DNA from: Nitrospirota bacterium
Lineage (GTDB): Bacteria > Nitrospirota > Leptospirillia > Leptospirillales > Leptospirillaceae
Length of the DNA stretch: 50,925 nt
Assembly: GCA_023481175.1 (NCBI GenBank)
Contig: JAMCWM010000007.1
Location: forward strand, 1 to 50,925
Direction of reading: 5' to 3'
The notes below the pieces were generated by a model that was not told where the DNA came from, did no database searches, and saw only the letters and a list, made by a program, of their open reading frames with translations. Made by a program: the position numbers and the translations under genes. Below are positions 18,707-27,129 of the stretch, in pieces (position 1 is the stretch's first letter; each line of letters begins with the position of its first letter).

Positions 18707-19756
18707 ATGGTCGTCCGCTATGCGGAAAACAAGGAAGAAAGCGCGGAGATCCTTCGCCTCGTCCTTCAGAAAATGAGCGAATGGCGGCTTTCCTTTACCC
18801 CCATCCACTATACCGTCGTCTATGAATATGTCACGAATATCAATCCGGGTCTCCGGAAAGTCCTCGACGACCTCGTTGCGGCCGGCTCTCTCGACGACAA
18901 GAGGATCGAGGAGGCCTATTACGGGTTCATCGTTCCGGAACAGACCCTTCCCGTCCTGGAGCAGCGTGGACTTCTGACCCAGGAAACCCTTGAAATCCTG
19001 AACCGAATGTCCGAATCGGCCAACACCACCATGCAGAACACCCAAAAGGCCCGTTACGGAATCCTCTCCCAGCACAACGCCCTACGCACGGCCGAGGCCG
19101 TCGACTCCTCCCTCCTGCAGTCCGTCATCTCGAAGCTCGCCGGGGAGACGAAAAAGCTCCTCGAGACGAGCGAGACCCTGGAAAATCAGCTGAGGGACAG
19201 CCGGAAGGAGATCGAAAGCCTTCGGAATGAGCTCCAGGCGGCCGCCCAGGCCTCCGCCCTCGATCCTCTGACCGGCGTCATCAACCGCCGGGGCTTCGAA
19301 AAACAGATCTCCGTCTGTCTCGAGACCCATGAAAAGAAGGGGAGCGATTGCTCCTTCCTTTTTCTTGACATCGATCACTTCAAGAGGATCAATGACGAAT
19401 ATGGCCATGTCGTGGGAGACCGTGTCCTTCAGGCCGTGGCCCAGGTCCTCAGAGCAAAGACCCGAGGCGAAGACGTCGTGGCCCGCTACGGGGGAGAGGA
19501 GTTTGTGGTCATCCTTCCCGCCACTCCCATCGACAAGGCCCATATCGTCGCCGAGAACATTCGCCAGAATGTCGAACGCATCGCCCTTCTGAATGCGAAG
19601 GACAATAAAACCATCGGAGTCGTCACCGTCTCGATCGGAATCGATGTCCACAAGCCGGGCCAAAACTGGCGGCAGACTGTCGAACGGGCCGACAAGGCGA
19701 TGTATCAGTCAAAGCAGAATGGAAGAAACCGGACGACGACCTACTTCCAGCTCTGA
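18707..19756 (+). CDS. Diguanylate cyclase (GGDEF)
   Basis: 349 residues, cytosolic. Residues about 1-150 form an alpha-helical domain of unknown type (begins VRYAENKEESAEILRLVLQK), followed by a coiled coil (about 140-180; KKLLETSETLENQLRDSRKE) and a GGDEF domain (about 185-345). The active site is intact: FLDIDHFKRINDEYGH, and GGEEF at ARYGGEEFVVILP, with an inhibitory I-site RGED five residues before GGEEF. It should make c-di-GMP from two GTP and be product-inhibited. The N-terminal helical module resembles regulators of motility-linked cyclases but has no named family that I can assert. It converges with the giant LOV protein. Confidence 0.92.
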   Translation: MVVRYAENKEESAEILRLVLQKMSEWRLSFTPIHYTVVYEYVTNINPGLRKVLDDLVAAGSLDDKRIEEAYYGFIVPEQTLPVLEQRGLLTQETLEILNRMSESANTTMQNTQKARYGILSQHNALRTAEAVDSSLLQSVISKLAGETKKLLETSETLENQLRDSRKEIESLRNELQAAAQASALDPLTGVINRRGFEKQISVCLETHEKKGSDCSFLFLDIDHFKRINDEYGHVVGDRVLQAVAQVLRAKTRGEDVVARYGGEEFVVILPATPIDKAHIVAENIRQNVERIALLNAKDNKTIGVVTVSIGIDVHKPGQNWRQTVERADKAMYQSKQNGRNRTTTYFQL

Positions 19757-19785: not shown

Positions 19786-22700
19786 TCATTCCTTCCGCCT
19801 TCGACGATCCTCTGCCAGAATCGACTCCGTCAGCGCCTCCATGGCGGTCCTGGCAGGACCCAGATCCAATTCCCTGAGACGTGTTTCCTGGTCCCGGACT
19901 TGCCGGTAAAGCGCACCCAGGGCCCTGTGGTAGCGGGAATGGAGTCGATCGATCCTTCCGTCGGCAGGAAGGTCGAGAGATCCGAACATCTTCTGGAGCG
20001 GACAGCTGTGTCCGTCTTCCAGCGACGCCCTGTCGAGAAAGTCGGGGCTTTGAAGAAGGATGTCCATCTGCATTCCGTGAATCCGGACCGACTGGGCATA
20101 GAGACCGAGAAGCGATTTGGGATGGACGGCCTCCTCCGGATGGAATTCCTGGAGAAAAGACGTCAAGGCCCGAAGAGGCAGGGGCCGGGAGATGGCAAAC
20201 CCCTGCAGGAAGTCCACCCCGAGCATCCGCATGGCGTCCATGATCCCGTCCGTTTCCACCCCCTCCACCACGAGCGAGAGCCCCATCCGGTGGCAGAGCT
20301 CCTTGATGGCTTCCACGAAGTGGAGATCCCGCGGACGCGAATCGAGAGTCCGGACAAACCCCTGGTCGAGTTTCACCTTGTCGACCGGAAGGTCCTTCAG
20401 ACGAAGAAGCGACGAATAAGCGCTGCCCACATCGTCCATGGCCAGGCTGACGCCCAGATTTCTGAGCCGTCGCAGGAGATCGAGGGCCACGACCGTCTCC
20501 CCGAATTCCTGACCCTCGAGGATCTCGAGGGTCAGCCGGGAGGGGGGAATGGAGGCCCCGTCCAGCATTCTTCCCAGACAGTCGAAACACCCTTCCGAGA
20601 CCGAGCGGGGATCGACGTTTACCGAGAGCCAGAGGGACGGATCAATGGCCAGGAGTCCTGCGAGGTCGGACAGGGAGCGCTCCAGCACCTGCCGGGAAAG
20701 CTCGAAGAGATCGTCGGCCCCGTAGTGGGGCAGGATCTCTTCCGGCATCAGGATCCGGCCCCCGGGATCTCTAAGACGGGCCAGGGCCTCGATGCCCGCG
20801 ATCCGTCCGGTCCGGTTGTCGAGGACAGGCTGATAGTGCACCTCCACCCGGCGCTCGGAAAGAAGCCTCTGGGGCAGGGTCCGGGCCAGGGGGACGGTCT
20901 CCCCGTGGACCACCCAGGAGCGTGACCGGTCGCTCTTGTGGTTCTTGCTTTCGTAGAGGGCCTGGTCGGCCCGGCGAAGCAGGATCTCCGGGTTTTCGGG
21001 AGCCTCCGGATCCGAGGAAGAGAGGGCCACACCGATCGAAACCCCCACGGACACCTCTTCCCCCCCTTCCAGCAGGACCGGTATCCGGGCCTGGCGGTCG
21101 ATCCTCTCCAGAAGATCCCCGAGCTCCTCCTGGAGTCCGACATTTTCAAGGAGCAGGACAAACTCGTCTCCGCCCTGGCGCGCCAAAAAGTCGGTCTTTC
21201 GAAGAGTCCCCAGGATCCTCTCTCCCGTGAGGCGCAGGAGGCGGTCTCCGGCCTCGTGACCATAGCGGTCGTTGACGGGCTTGAAGCCGTCGAGATCGAG
21301 GATTGCAACGGCAAATGGCCACCCGTACCGCCTCGAACGGGCGAGGACCTTGTCGAACTCGAGGTCGAGGGCCCGGCGGTTCGGAAGGCCGGTCAGACGG
21401 TCATGCCGGGAGTCGTACTCGAGCCTTTTGGTCAGGTCGATCAGAGAGGTGATGTCCCTCTGGTTCCCGACAAATTCGACGATCTCCCCCGAAGAGTTCC
21501 GGACCGGGCTGATGGAGAGGAGATTCCAGAAAGGAGTTTTGTCCTTGCGATAGTTCAGGATCTGTCCATGGAAGGGGCGCCCCTCCCGAAGGGCTCGGCG
21601 GATCTCCCCGACCGTTGCCGGATCGGTCGCCTCTCCCTGAAGGATCCGGCAGTTTTCGCCCACCATCTCGGAGGCACTGTAGCCGGTGATGGCGGCAAAG
21701 CCGTCATTGGCAAAAATGACCCGGGAATCGGGTCCGGTGATCACGACGCCTTCTCCCACCGCCGCCACGGCGCTCGACAGAAGGTTCTGCCGGGCGAGAA
21801 GGTCGAGGCGGTCGAGCCCATGGGAGATCGTGCGGGCGAGTTCGTTCAGGAGTCCTTCGAGTACGGGATCCTCGAAGACCCTCTGCGTCCCGTGGCCCAC
21901 AAGAAGGACCCCCCAGACCTCTCCCTTCCGGAAGATCGGCAGAGCTCCCATGGCCTTGATCCCGAACTCCCTCGCCCGGTCTCTCCACGGCCCCATGACG
22001 GGATCCTCCGCGAAACCGAAGACAGGGCGGCGGCCGGAAAAGGCCCGGGAAAGAAGATCCGGAGCCCCCGGATCCCCGCTCCCGGCGAAAAAGGGGAGCC
22101 CCTCCAGAAAGCCGGTCTTTCCCGAAGCGCCGAGCCACGCGACTCCCTTCCCGTCTTCCGCACGGCCGATGGCAGAAACCGCCATCTCTCCGTCCCGGAC
22201 AGCGAGATCGCAAAGATTTTTGAGAAGGGAGGGCTCGTCGGAGCTGGACGAGAGGGCCTCGCCAGCATGGGCCAGAAGGGTATTGTAGGCCGACAGGAGG
22301 CGGAGCCGCTCGGTCTGGGCATGACGGTCGGTCACATCGTACACGGTGACGACCACCTTCGACGGCTCGCCCGGGATCCGGGCCAGGGAGAGATCCACCA
22401 TGACCGGTTGCCCACTCCTGGTCACCATCCTCACATCCGGGATCTCGACGCTTTCACGGGAGGGAAGAAGCGTGTAAGCGAAGCCCACCCTCTCGTACTC
22501 CCCCGTATCGGCATAGAGCATCCGGGTGGAGCGGCCCACCATCTCCCCGGAGCTTTCGTATCCCAGCATCTGTCGCATCCGGTCGTTGGCGTAGCGAATC
22601 ACGCGCTGTTCCTGAAAAAGGATTCCCGCCAGGGTGTTTTCCAGAAGGACATTCTCCAGGGTGGCCATCTCCCGCTCCCGGCGGAGGGACTCCAGACGGT

Positions 22701-25404
22701 CGAGCCCTCGGGAAATATCCCGGGCCAGTTCGGAGAAGACCTCCGTCAGCGGGGGGAAAAAGCCTCCGGCCTCCTCGCGGTAGAGGGCCAGGATTCCCCA
22801 GATCGCGCCCTCCTTCATCACCGGAAGGACGGCGGCGCTTTTGAGTCCGTGGCGAAAGGCCTTCTCCGCCAGGGACGTTCCGGCAAAGGTCCTCTCGAGA
22901 TCGATATTGAAGCTCGGGACGCCGGTCCTCCAGACCTCCCCCACCGGCCCATTCTTCGTCGGATCGACGGATATCTCGAGCCCCTCCAGGAAGGCCGTTT
23001 CCCCGGAGCTGGCATAGACATTGACGACCTTCTCCTCCTCCGGGCGTCCGATCCAGGCCAGGCGGAGTTTCCCGTAGCGGACCGAAAGGTCGCAGATGGC
23101 CCTGAGAAGGGAATCCTCCGTCGCGGCCTCGACAATCGCCTGGTTGATCTGGGCCAGGAGAAGATTGGAGTCGGAAAGGCGGGAAAGCTCCCGGGCCAGG
23201 CGGTGGCGTTCCGTCACATCGACGATCGTCCAGACGATCGTCTCGTGATCGGCCTCCCGGATTTTCGCACCCGACAGGTCGACAAACCCTTCCGTTCCGT
23301 CGGCGCGACGGATACGCAAATCCCGAAGGCGGGAGCTCCCCGTGGCAAGGGCCTCCGCCGCCGCCTCTCCCATCCTGCGGAAGCTTTCATCCTCCACGAA
23401 ATAGAGATCCTGGACGTGGTGGCCCACGATTTCCGCGGCCTCCCTGTATCCCAGAATCTCGAGGAAGCCCCGGTTGACCTCGACCACGACCCGTTCGGGG
23501 TATCGCACAAGGTCGATCCCGGCCGAGGTATTGGCGAGGAGAGTCTCCTTGAGAGCCGTGGCCTTTCGTTCCCGTTCCGCAAGATCGAGCCGGTCGAGGG
23601 CCAGGGAGAGATTGTCCGCGATCGCCTCGAGAAGGTTGCAGATCTCCGTTTCGAAGGGCTTCTTCCGGTCGAAGTAGACGGTCAGGACAGCCCAGACCGC
23701 TCCGCTCCGGCGCACGGGAAGGGAGGCGCTCGCCAAAAATCCGGAACGGGCGCCCCGATCGCGCCAGGGAGCCATGGCCGGATTCTCCGAAAAGGACTCG
23801 CTGTAGACCGGGGCTCCGCTCCGCCATGATTGGCCCATGGGTCCCCGCCCCTCGGGACGGCGCTCGTCCACGGAAATAATCAGGCCCTCGAGGTAGTCCG
23901 TCTCCCCGGAGGAGGCGATCGGGCGAAAGATTCCCTCCTCGTCGGGACGTCCGACCCAGGCCATGCGGATTTCCGGCACTTCAAGGGACAGGCGGCAGAA
24001 CTCGGGAAGGATCTCGCCCTCCTTTGTGGCCCGGGAGACCGCCTCGGCCACCCGGCCCCGGAGGGCATCGAAGGCCAGGAGCCTTCCCAGCCTCAGGTTC
24101 TTTTCCTCGAGCTCCCGCTCGAGCGTCATGCGCTCCGTCACGTCGAGCCCCAGCGTCACCAGGGAGAGGAACCGGCCCTCCCGGTCCCGAAGGACCGTGC
24201 TGGTCCATTCGAACTCCCGAAGGCTCCCCGAGGGGGTGATCCAGGGATTCTGATGGTGGACGGGACGGGTTTCGTCCTTCATCTGAAGGACGAAATCGCG
24301 GATCCCGGGACGCATCCAGTCGGGCAGGAAGCGCTCCCAGTAGTAGGGGCGGCCCCGGACCTCCGAGAGAGTCACCCCCATGAACTCCCGGGCCGCCCGG
24401 TTCAGGCGCTGGATCTCCCCGTTTTCGTCGATCACCATCCCGATCGCCCCGGCCGAATCGAAGATCGCCTCGTCGAAGGCGGAAAGCTCCGACAGTTCCT
24501 CTCCCTGCCGTTCCTGGCGCCGGACCAGGATCCGGATCCCCCCGGCCATCAGGAGCATGAGAAAAAGCCCTCCCTCCTCGACCATCCAGCGCCGGGACGC
24601 CTCCTCCATCCACCCTTCCCGAACGAGGGAGGAGGGCCAGGAGGCCTCAAGGGTGAAGGGGTAGCCCGACACGGGGGTCCGGACGCGGGATCCCGGGGAG
24701 GGAAGAAGCGGGGAATCCGGACGCTCCCCGCGGGACAGGAGCATCATGTCGCCGTTTCTCGAATCCCGGAGAAAAAAACTGAAGGGGGAGGCGAGGGAGG
24801 GCGGCCGGAGGGCCTCGACCCGGAGATAGGTCCGTACCCCGAGGGGGGGATGGCCCTTTGTCAGGGGAAGCAGGATGGCCAGGGGAAGGATCCTCCCCCC
24901 GATCCTGGCCGAGAGTCGGCTTTTTCCCACAAGAAAGGAGGGGTTCGAGGAGAGAGGCGTCGCATAGGCCCCCCGGCGGCCGGGCCCCGAAAGGGAGGCG
25001 GAAGGAAAACGATTGGTCCAGAGACTCTTTCCGGTCCGGGGGTCGAAGATTTCCAGATCGACCAGGGCGGGGTGAAGGGCCAGAAAGATCCGGAAGGCCT
25101 TCTGCATGGAGGAGGACGGATGCCGGGAGGGTCGGCTTTCTCCGGAGACGGAAGACGCCACGAACCCCAGGTCGAGAAAGGCGGAGGAGAGGCGGGAGGC
25201 CAGGGCGGCCGCCTGAAAAAGATCCGCCCGGAGGGCGCGGGAGGACACCTTCTCCCGGTAGTCCCGGTACTCCCGGACCTCGAAGTATCCGGTGCCCAGA
25301 AGGGCCAGAACGAGCGTTCCGGCGATCAGAAGGTCGATCGTGTGTCCGACCAGAAGACTTCTGACCAGGCGGTCGCCCCGGAGCTTTGCCTTATTTGGAT
25401 CCAT
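19786..25404 (-). CDS. Membrane multi-sensor LOV-GGDEF-EAL protein with CZB-like zinc domain
   Basis: 1872 residues, approximate order: transmembrane segment 23-43, periplasmic sensor 44-270, transmembrane 272-292, PAS 305-425, GAF 440-600, PAS 618-735, GAF 745-905, PAS 915-1030, GAF 1035-1200, LOV-type PAS 1210-1322, GGDEF 1340-1490, EAL 1515-1760, CZB-like tail 1770-1830. The LOV domain shows GENCRILQG with Cys1252, NYRKDKTPFWN with Asn1284 and Asn1294, and FVGNQRDIT with Gln1315: the spacing (+32, +42, +63 from the cysteine) equals that of phototropin LOV2 (C450, N482, N492, Q513). The GGDEF motif is intact with an RKTD I-site; EAL has EALARL, a DDVG in place of DDFG, KLDQ and VEGVET. The tail has His1776, Cys1801, His1822 and His1826, the CZB pattern. 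ATG 25404 lies 18 bases behind the pheT stop with GGGAG upstream. Net cyclase or phosphodiesterase output cannot be told. Confidence 0.9.
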   Translation of the reverse strand: MDPNKAKLRGDRLVRSLLVGHTIDLLIAGTLVLALLGTGYFEVREYRDYREKVSSRALRADLFQAAALASRLSSAFLDLGFVASSVSGESRPSRHPSSSMQKAFRIFLALHPALVDLEIFDPRTGKSLWTNRFPSASLSGPGRRGAYATPLSSNPSFLVGKSRLSARIGGRILPLAILLPLTKGHPPLGVRTYLRVEALRPPSLASPFSFFLRDSRNGDMMLLSRGERPDSPLLPSPGSRVRTPVSGYPFTLEASWPSSLVREGWMEEASRRWMVEEGGLFLMLLMAGGIRILVRRQERQGEELSELSAFDEAIFDSAGAIGMVIDENGEIQRLNRAAREFMGVTLSEVRGRPYYWERFLPDWMRPGIRDFVLQMKDETRPVHHQNPWITPSGSLREFEWTSTVLRDREGRFLSLVTLGLDVTERMTLERELEEKNLRLGRLLAFDALRGRVAEAVSRATKEGEILPEFCRLSLEVPEIRMAWVGRPDEEGIFRPIASSGETDYLEGLIISVDERRPEGRGPMGQSWRSGAPVYSESFSENPAMAPWRDRGARSGFLASASLPVRRSGAVWAVLTVYFDRKKPFETEICNLLEAIADNLSLALDRLDLAERERKATALKETLLANTSAGIDLVRYPERVVVEVNRGFLEILGYREAAEIVGHHVQDLYFVEDESFRRMGEAAAEALATGSSRLRDLRIRRADGTEGFVDLSGAKIREADHETIVWTIVDVTERHRLARELSRLSDSNLLLAQINQAIVEAATEDSLLRAICDLSVRYGKLRLAWIGRPEEEKVVNVYASSGETAFLEGLEISVDPTKNGPVGEVWRTGVPSFNIDLERTFAGTSLAEKAFRHGLKSAAVLPVMKEGAIWGILALYREEAGGFFPPLTEVFSELARDISRGLDRLESLRREREMATLENVLLENTLAGILFQEQRVIRYANDRMRQMLGYESSGEMVGRSTRMLYADTGEYERVGFAYTLLPSRESVEIPDVRMVTRSGQPVMVDLSLARIPGEPSKVVVTVYDVTDRHAQTERLRLLSAYNTLLAHAGEALSSSSDEPSLLKNLCDLAVRDGEMAVSAIGRAEDGKGVAWLGASGKTGFLEGLPFFAGSGDPGAPDLLSRAFSGRRPVFGFAEDPVMGPWRDRAREFGIKAMGALPIFRKGEVWGVLLVGHGTQRVFEDPVLEGLLNELARTISHGLDRLDLLARQNLLSSAVAAVGEGVVITGPDSRVIFANDGFAAITGYSASEMVGENCRILQGEATDPATVGEIRRALREGRPFHGQILNYRKDKTPFWNLLSISPVRNSSGEIVEFVGNQRDITSLIDLTKRLEYDSRHDRLTGLPNRRALDLEFDKVLARSRRYGWPFAVAILDLDGFKPVNDRYGHEAGDRLLRLTGERILGTLRKTDFLARQGGDEFVLLLENVGLQEELGDLLERIDRQARIPVLLEGGEEVSVGVSIGVALSSSDPEAPENPEILLRRADQALYESKNHKSDRSRSWVVHGETVPLARTLPQRLLSERRVEVHYQPVLDNRTGRIAGIEALARLRDPGGRILMPEEILPHYGADDLFELSRQVLERSLSDLAGLLAIDPSLWLSVNVDPRSVSEGCFDCLGRMLDGASIPPSRLTLEILEGQEFGETVVALDLLRRLRNLGVSLAMDDVGSAYSSLLRLKDLPVDKVKLDQGFVRTLDSRPRDLHFVEAIKELCHRMGLSLVVEGVETDGIMDAMRMLGVDFLQGFAISRPLPLRALTSFLQEFHPEEAVHPKSLLGLYAQSVRIHGMQMDILLQSPDFLDRASLEDGHSCPLQKMFGSLDLPADGRIDRLHSRYHRALGALYRQVRDQETRLRELDLGPARTAMEALTESILAEDRRRRKE

Positions 25405-25422: not shown

Positions 25423-27129
25423 TCAGGAGGCCAAGAGCGCCTCCAGGTCGACCTCGAAGCAGACCGTGGGCATCCGGATTCCCCAGCGGTCGAGGGTCCC
25501 TGGATGGATCTCGCCCACCGTCGCCACTCTCTCCCCTTTCGTGTTCACATAGACGCCGCACCGGCCCGGAAGATAGGGGGGAAGGGCCGAGGAATGGATG
25601 GCAAGGGAGCGGTCCATCCGCTCGAAGAGCAATTCCAGGACCCCCTGGAGTTCGGAGACGCTGGCCTGGGGATGGGAGAGAAGGGCCGAGAGAAGCCAGA
25701 GATCGCGCACGGGCCGCTCCGATCCGGAGGAGGCGGTCCCCAGCCGCATCGCCTCCCCGACCTCGAAGATCCGGTGGGGATAGGCGGCCCGGCTCGACCG
25801 GGCCTCGGCGGCGAGAAGCGCGGACAAAAGGGTCGGACGGACGACGGCGAACTGGAGGCTCGCGGGATTGTCGATCCGGACGAGTTCACCCCCGTCCCGG
25901 CCAAGCCGTTCCGTCACGAGCGGCTCCCCCGTCAGGATATTGGAGAGGAGCTCCTGGTAACCCATGGCCAGAAGAGACTGCCTGACGCGCGTTTCGATCT
26001 TCTGGCGAGGTGCGGGCCGGCCCCGGGTGAACTCCCGGGGGAGAACCGGCTCGAAGTTGTCGTAACCCTTGGCCACGAGGTAGTCTTCGACCACGTCCAC
26101 CGCCCCGAGAAGGTCGTCGCGGGTGAAGGGGGAGGAGACCTCCCAGCCCCTCTCCCCGTCTTTCTTTGCGATCTGGGGATAGCCAAACCCCAGGAGGGTC
26201 TCCACGAAGTCGGGGGGATCGCTTTCGGCACCCAGGATGCGGGCGGGAAGACCCGCAGGCACATGGACACGGATGGCCGGGGAGGCCGGAGCCACGAACG
26301 GGTCCGCCCCTCCCGCCAGGAGCGGCTCGACAGAATACCCCCGGTCGGTCAGGTTGGCGGCCAGGATGTTCAGGACCAGAAGAAGCCGCCCCGGGTCGAA
26401 TCCGGTCGCCTCGACGAAGAGGGCGTCGTCATCCGGGGCCACCTCTCCCGAGGAACGTCCGTTGATGACCGGGGGAAAGGACAGGACGGTCTCCCGGCCA
26501 TCGACCAGAACCGGCCAGGCGGCATGCGAACTCACCAGGGCTCCGTAGGCCTGTCCCTTGGGATGGGAGGCCACGATCTCCCGAAGAGTCATCTCGCGGT
26601 CTCCCCCCAGGGGCAAAAAGCGGGTGCGATCCGGATCGGCCGTCCGGTAGGTCAGGGGAAAGGCGATGCGACCGAGAGGATAGACCCCGATGGCGACATC
26701 GGCACGCTTTCGGCCAAAGAGTTCGGCCAGGCGCTCCTGGGTTCCGATGAGCTGAGCGAGTCCCTCCTCCCCGAGACGCCCCCCCCGGGCGGCAAATCCT
26801 CCCAGAAAAGGACGCACCGTCCCGGTCGAGGGATCGATCCGGATTTCGGGATCTCCTCCCCGCTCCTTGCGGACCATGGCCTTCTCGAGAAAATCGTAGG
26901 GATGGCCAAGGCGGGGCCCCCCTCCCCGGAGCTGGCGGGCGATTCCCTCGACGCTCCAGAGGTCCGGCCGGTTGGTGTCGTTGAGCTCGATCTTGAAGCG
27001 TCGTGTCGCCGGGTCGAAATGTTTCCACTCCCCCTTCACGCAATCGAGGGTCCGATCCATCTCTTCCGGGACAAGGGTTTTTCCCAGGAGTCCCAGAAGA
27101 TCGTCAAAATGTCCTTCCAGTGTGGGCAC
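25423..27129 (-). CDS. pheT: Phenylalanyl-tRNA synthetase beta subunit, archaeal/eukaryotic type
   Basis: 568 residues, far shorter than the about 790 of usual bacterial PheT. It lacks the N-terminal tRNA-binding (EMAPII-like) domain and the C-terminal anticodon-binding fold, and it begins with GHFDDLLGLLGK and IELNDTNRPDLWSVEGIAR, a layout shared with archaeal and eukaryotic beta subunits. A B3/4-like editing region and B5 (IRVHVPAGLPARILG) lie in the middle and the catalytic-like core is at about 360-560. The start is GTG 27129 with GAGGT upstream. It forms a heterotetramer with PheS and charges tRNA-Phe. Directly followed by the LOV-GGDEF-EAL gene. Confidence 0.88.
   Translation of the reverse strand: MPTLEGHFDDLLGLLGKTLVPEEMDRTLDCVKGEWKHFDPATRRFKIELNDTNRPDLWSVEGIARQLRGGGPRLGHPYDFLEKAMVRKERGGDPEIRIDPSTGTVRPFLGGFAARGGRLGEEGLAQLIGTQERLAELFGRKRADVAIGVYPLGRIAFPLTYRTADPDRTRFLPLGGDREMTLREIVASHPKGQAYGALVSSHAAWPVLVDGRETVLSFPPVINGRSSGEVAPDDDALFVEATGFDPGRLLLVLNILAANLTDRGYSVEPLLAGGADPFVAPASPAIRVHVPAGLPARILGAESDPPDFVETLLGFGYPQIAKKDGERGWEVSSPFTRDDLLGAVDVVEDYLVAKGYDNFEPVLPREFTRGRPAPRQKIETRVRQSLLAMGYQELLSNILTGEPLVTERLGRDGGELVRIDNPASLQFAVVRPTLLSALLAAEARSSRAAYPHRIFEVGEAMRLGTASSGSERPVRDLWLLSALLSHPQASVSELQGVLELLFERMDRSLAIHSSALPPYLPGRCGVYVNTKGERVATVGEIHPGTLDRWGIRMPTVCFEVDLEALLAS

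Follow-up and report, generated by a model that had tools for sequence, protein, structure and literature searches.

A LOV domain beside the GGDEF and EAL domains of a Leptospirillaceae protein: a probable blue-light input to cyclic diguanylate turnover, and orthologs with leucine in place of the light-reacting cysteine

We describe here a large signalling protein encoded in a 50,925-nucleotide stretch of DNA from a member of the Leptospirillaceae, phylum Nitrospirota (contig JAMCWM010000007.1 of assembly GCA_023481175.1); this whole stretch is referred to below as the window. The protein carries, directly in front of its GGDEF and EAL domains, a domain with the key residues of the LOV blue-light photoreceptors, and some of its close relatives at the same locus have leucine in place of the light-reacting cysteine. 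The genes and features of the locus are as follows.

19786 to 25404, minus strand: open reading frame of 1872 amino acids encoding the LOV protein, from the reading-frame listing and its translation; layout, an N-terminal transmembrane segment, a probable periplasmic part, PAS-GAF-PAS-GAF-PAS-GAF-LOV-GGDEF-EAL and a C-terminal helical domain
21433 to 21780, minus strand: LOV domain, residues 1209-1324, with Cys1252, Asn1284, Asn1294 and Gln1315
21635 to 21660, minus strand: GENCRILQG segment, cysteine codon TGC
21394 to 21456, minus strand: LOV-GGDEF linker of 21 residues, from Asp1317 of DIT to Leu1337 of DxLT
20929 to 21408, minus strand: GGDEF domain, with GGDEF at residues 1411-1415 and the I-site RKTD at 1402-1405
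20182 to 20871, minus strand: EAL domain, in which the catalytic motifs are present
19789 to 20166, minus strand: C-terminal predicted helical domain
25423 to 27129, minus strand: pheT (phenylalanyl-tRNA synthetase beta), the next gene upstream and in the same orientation, a conserved neighbour
18707 to 19756, plus strand: convergent GGDEF gene of 349 amino acids, a conserved neighbour

Pfam finds PAS_9 in four stretches of the protein, GAF_2 in three, and GGDEF and EAL; the best PAS_9 match, at residues 1218-1319, falls where a preliminary description of this DNA had placed the LOV domain and had asked for such a search. That description called the protein a cyclic diguanylate (c-di-GMP) sensor of the inner membrane. 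It is indeed a c-di-GMP protein, but its domains are of the kind that make and degrade the molecule rather than sense it, and the membrane location holds for a first transmembrane helix (residues 16-43, above a hydropathy cut-off of 1.6), a second, near 275-293, being visible by eye only. The GGDEF, I-site and EAL motifs read as intact, and the enzyme activities are predicted from them.

The assignment of the LOV domain begins with Cys1252, Asn1284, Asn1294 and Gln1315 in the fourth PAS domain. These residues and their spacings of +32, +42 and +63 are as originally claimed, and they reproduce those of Cys450, Asn482, Asn492 and Gln513 of AsLOV2; the surrounding GENCRILQG fits the adduct-cysteine motif GxNCRxLQ. 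It was also correct that only one of the four PAS domains has these features: PAS2 and PAS3 align without the LOV motif, and PAS1, its translation read by eye, also lacks it. In the window's genome, all four residues occur in one of the 25 PAS profile matches that were read; several of the 25 are incomplete and leave some positions unreadable (a PAS_9 search had listed 32). The other flavin-contact positions readable after the cysteine are mostly kept (Arg, Leu, Gln, Val, Ile, Arg, Phe and Gly); the differences fall at positions that correspond to Ile470 and Phe494 of AsLOV2, both Leu here, and to Leu496, here Ile. The columns of V416, T418 and N425, which a gap had shifted out of register, were excluded.

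Comparison with solved proteins leads to the same assignment. For a 132-residue LOV stretch the closest solved sequences are LOV domains, those of histidine kinases and of phototropins, with a best E of 1.1e-33. In all three alignments shown, the two Asn and the Gln align with those of the solved domains, and the cysteine column holds Cys in two and Ala in one, an engineered variant. The NCBIfam profiles for the YtvA family (131.8 bits over 1208-1329) and for LOV histidine kinases (126.1 bits over 1218-1322) both match, at scores below their whole-protein cut-offs. An AlphaFold model made from 37 family sequences, with a mean predicted local distance difference test score (pLDDT) of 87.5, gives a predicted PAS fold of the LOV type: the top Foldseek matches are LOV structures, that of Meiothermus first (E 3.0e-16) and then Chloroflexus. 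The Chloroflexus and Meiothermus matches show 43-53% identity at 0.6-1.9 Å root-mean-square deviation, and superposition on the LOV domain of Chloroflexus aggregans (6rhg) gives 0.7 Å over 104 columns. A chance or generic PAS match is ruled out by the E-values against solved LOV domains, by the single full set of residues among the 25 PAS matches and by the Foldseek results.

The window's genome (2.32 Mb in 55 contigs, 89% complete, 6% contamination) is one of 14 from its genus. An ortholog is present in 13 of these, the window's own included; the fourteenth, G010 (70% complete), has paralogs only. A tree of LOV-GGDEF rows from which the Cys column was excluded places all 13 orthologs in a single starred clade; it contains 39 of 60 rows, selected for a score of more than 130 bits and the presence of a GGDEF-like string. 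The gene adjoins pheT in 12 of the 13 and lies opposite the convergent 349-residue GGDEF gene in 12; the cases with a missing neighbour, G009 and G007, are each at a contig end. All 13 of these positional orthologs retain the two Asn and the Gln, and their linkers are of the same length. The LOV domain shares 88% identity with the window's in G001a and 68% in G012a, in both pairs more than any other sensory domain. It should be noted that the G006 ortholog (L041, on contig C47) is split over two reading frames, which reflects either a genuine interruption of the gene or a fault in the assembly; it was read from one of the two, the N-terminal third being in the other frame of the contig.

Linker length was counted from the D of D(I/V)(T/S) to the L of DxLT, as defined in PMC10396304. 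The 21 residues found in the window protein equal the linker length of the short-linker LadC proteins; a script gave the same length in 12 of the 13 orthologs, and G012a, read from DIT to DRLT, also has 21. The GGDEF and RKTD motifs are identical in all 13. The DD pair of the EAL domain is broken in one, G007a, which has lost the second Asp and whose contig (L126) has a low coverage of 1.46. Short-linker LOV cyclases with 21-residue linkers are activated about 15-fold by blue light (PMC10396304), and the LOV-GGDEF fragment of a Mesorhizobium LOV-GGDEF-EAL protein acts as a cyclase that is repressed by blue light (PMC9098866). Of the two LadC clusters described, one has linkers of 21 residues and the other of 35; ten Cys-type LOV-GGDEF paralogs of the genus (L083, L085, L086 and L110-L116) have linkers of 24, which fit neither.

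At the other end of the protein, the C-terminal domain is predicted to be helical (pLDDT 86), and His1776, Cys1801, His1822 and His1826 are invariant in all 13 orthologs. A His, a Cys and a His-x3-His pair are the zinc ligands of the CZB domain of DgcZ. The residue pattern here resembles these ligands and lies among predicted helices, but the CZB profile of Pfam is unmatched for all 13 members, a search of PDB sequences gave no good match (best E 0.65) and the best Foldseek E-value was 0.5; the most plausible fold match is the middle domain of DosC, with a template-modelling score of 0.57-0.62 that is not significant (E about 3).

We consider it likely that the window's domain binds flavin and, as a LOV photoreceptor, tunes c-di-GMP turnover by way of the 21-residue helical linker. 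Residues 1209-1324 or thereabouts would constitute a canonical flavin-binding LOV domain, in which blue light would cause an adduct to form between Cys1252 and the flavin. Protonation of the flavin would be relayed by Gln1315 to the β-sheet, and the signal would pass through the helix after DIT into the linker. A change there could alter how the paired GGDEF domains pack and, perhaps to a greater degree, how active the EAL domain behind them is, such that local c-di-GMP would rise or fall with light. The gain would be set by the three PAS-GAF pairs together with the N-terminal part and the C-terminal helical domain. That a LOV photoreceptor module sits on a c-di-GMP turnover protein is well supported by sequence, predicted fold, ortholog conservation and intact output motifs. 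The flavin, the photocycle, the sign of the output and the biological role (attachment versus dispersal) we infer.

Several observations weigh against this reading. Truncated LOV-GGDEF pieces of LOV-GGDEF-EAL proteins with a 21-residue linker showed no light-regulated synthesis (PMC10396304). The authors of that paper regard the EAL domain as a plausible target of light control, and our claim is for both reasons limited to c-di-GMP turnover, of either sign. Between G005a and the window, PAS2 has slightly higher conservation than LOV (83 vs 80), and in four of five pairs of Leu orthologs LOV is surpassed in conservation by PAS1 or PAS2. Photolyase, BLUF and phytochrome are all unmatched in the window's genome, at its 89% completeness, which therefore offers no independent sign that the organism is exposed to light. 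Finally, four of the 13 orthologs (G004, G006, G008 and G011) have Leu at the position of the cysteine, the other nine having Cys. The proposal that blue light is converted into changes of c-di-GMP keeps its support from the domain and its output motifs, but the necessity of light for it is weakened by these four orthologs.

It is unexpected that close relatives at the same locus should have Leu for the light-reacting Cys with the other key marks kept. The Leu orthologs, from four species, form one starred clade (100/96), to which the sister, G002, has Cys. Leu is also found in two distant paralog pairs (G002_C54 with G010p, and G015_34 with G019_C47), and six further rows of the tree, which have lost more of the LOV signature, have Pro or Ala. 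The tree demands a minimum of four changes between Cys and not-Cys; within the ortholog clade Cys to Leu would be the simplest direction, the root of the tree not having been inferred, and passage from TGC to CTC or CTT takes at least two base changes. Each of the four Leu species has at least one Cys-type LOV-GGDEF paralog. The ratio of nonsynonymous to synonymous substitution rates (dN/dS) for the LOV domain is 0.13-0.26 in four Leu-ortholog pairs versus 0.04-0.18 in six Cys pairs, by a simple pairwise count over 13 chosen pairs, in which several of the dS values lie close to 1 or exceed it. These ratios indicate that the LOV domain of the Leu orthologs is under purifying selection, with a constraint perhaps slightly lower than in the Cys pairs.

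This conservation bears on a second explanation, in which the domain binds flavin but is chiefly a redox or oxygen sensor, like NifL-like and Cys-free LOV proteins; the cysteine would then be a leftover or a light add-on, and the Leu orthologs the pure redox form. Both Asn and the Gln are kept in the four orthologs and the two paralog lineages with Leu, the dN/dS range of the Leu orthologs counts in favour of this explanation, and Cys-free LOV proteins are known to signal through flavin reduction (PMC4682037). A redox-only role, however, gives no reason for keeping the cysteine, which nine of the 13 orthologs retain even at protein identities as low as 53%, as do 11 of the 15 paralog tree rows having both Asn and the Gln; for the window's domain we hold this explanation to be unlikely. 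Still less probable, and indeed very unlikely, is a LOV-derived PAS domain that no longer binds flavin and serves only for dimerisation or relay. The absence of the LOV motif from the other PAS domains of the protein would fit such a module, but Cys, both Asn, the Gln and most readable flavin-contact positions are kept. Moreover, when the window protein was compared with three full-length orthologs, LOV came out as the most conserved of the sensory domains in two of the pairs.

If the window's domain is taken as a LOV photoreceptor, its Leu relatives call for an account of their own. It is possible, although we advance it tentatively, that the change from Cys to Leu made a LOV photoreceptor controlling c-di-GMP into a Cys-free sensor of flavin redox state (or photoreduction), in one genus and at one syntenic locus, with linker length and enzyme motifs kept. 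Such a course, if true, would run opposite to the one proposed for the origin of LOV photoreceptors, which starts from redox flavoproteins. The ortholog series, alike in site, linker length and enzyme motifs and differing in one photochemical residue, is a natural matched set with which the boundary between light and flavin-redox sensing could be tested.

The distribution of the two forms was followed with DNA patterns in 395 genomes. The Leu pattern, which also admits Phe and allows Ser, Lys or Gln at the position that follows, occurs at 11 places in 11 genomes. Six are LOV, all within the window's genus, and five have no LOV-profile match (filter: motif present or more than 60 bits, E up to 0.01); the pattern would not detect domains of the Leu-Lys type (G015 and G019), in which the last Gly is absent. 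Within the reach of this pattern, a Leu-type LOV elsewhere in the phylum was considered and rejected. The Cys pattern occurs at 34 places in 30 genomes, namely 16 of the family's 21 genomes and 14 of the 374 outside it; 30 of the 34 were recovered as loci and 27 of these match the LOV profile, L182, without the Gln, among them. Two further features of the alignment may be recorded. At residue 1297 of the LOV domain, Thr replaces Ser in all eight Leu rows and in four of 21 Cys rows, in three lineages. The count is uncorrected for kinship, and a further four Cys rows, in which the usual Asn and Gln are missing, do not enter the 21. A paralog group (L087, L088, L089 and L091) keeps the Cys, in GQDCRRLLG or GRDCGILLG, with the first Asn replaced by His or Phe and the Gln by His.

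As regards other light-related genes, a photolyase match is present in 10 of the 21 family genomes, the window's own not among them, a phytochrome match in three and a BLUF match in none. All three genomes with phytochrome are among the four Leu species, an overlap that is suggestive only. Other photoreceptors as the reason for the loss of the Cys were considered and set aside, the fourth Leu species, G011 (78% complete), having no phytochrome match. Within the open-access literature, we found no paper with both 'Leptospirillum' and 'LOV domain', and neither 'Leptospirillum' nor 'blue light' stands in the title or abstract of any of the nine papers containing both. The likely blue-light input to c-di-GMP control is an addition for this Nitrospirota lineage.

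Synechococcus SL2 is a LOV-GGDEF-EAL photoreceptor. The comparison with such photoreceptors covers the LOV-GGDEF-EAL order; the window protein has in addition a membrane anchor and six further PAS and GAF domains. GGDEF, or GGDEF with EAL, is found on about 18% of 1390 bacterial LOV proteins, and Nitrospirae are among the phyla with LOV and/or BLUF proteins in a figure legend of the same paper (PMC4844311). The window protein is therefore of a known kind, and it is the Cys/Leu series of its orthologs that is worth following. The view that light sensing is unexpected here is weakened, since LOV-GGDEF/EAL proteins are common, Nitrospirae are so listed and photolyase is matched in nearly half of the family genomes. 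AoLadC and DpLadC (PMC10396304) resemble the window protein in having LOV directly before GGDEF, the motifs of both domains and a 21-residue linker; to these the window protein adds a transmembrane segment, three PAS, three GAF, an EAL and a C-terminal helical domain. Mesorhizobium loti WP_140774521.1 shares the order LOV-GGDEF-EAL and has Met where the window protein has the Gln (PMC9098866). BAT-LOV*, like the Leu orthologs, has LOV residues without the Cys; the replacements named in the part of PMC4682037 concerned include Ala, His and Pro but not Leu, and the window's own domain, in contrast, keeps its Cys.
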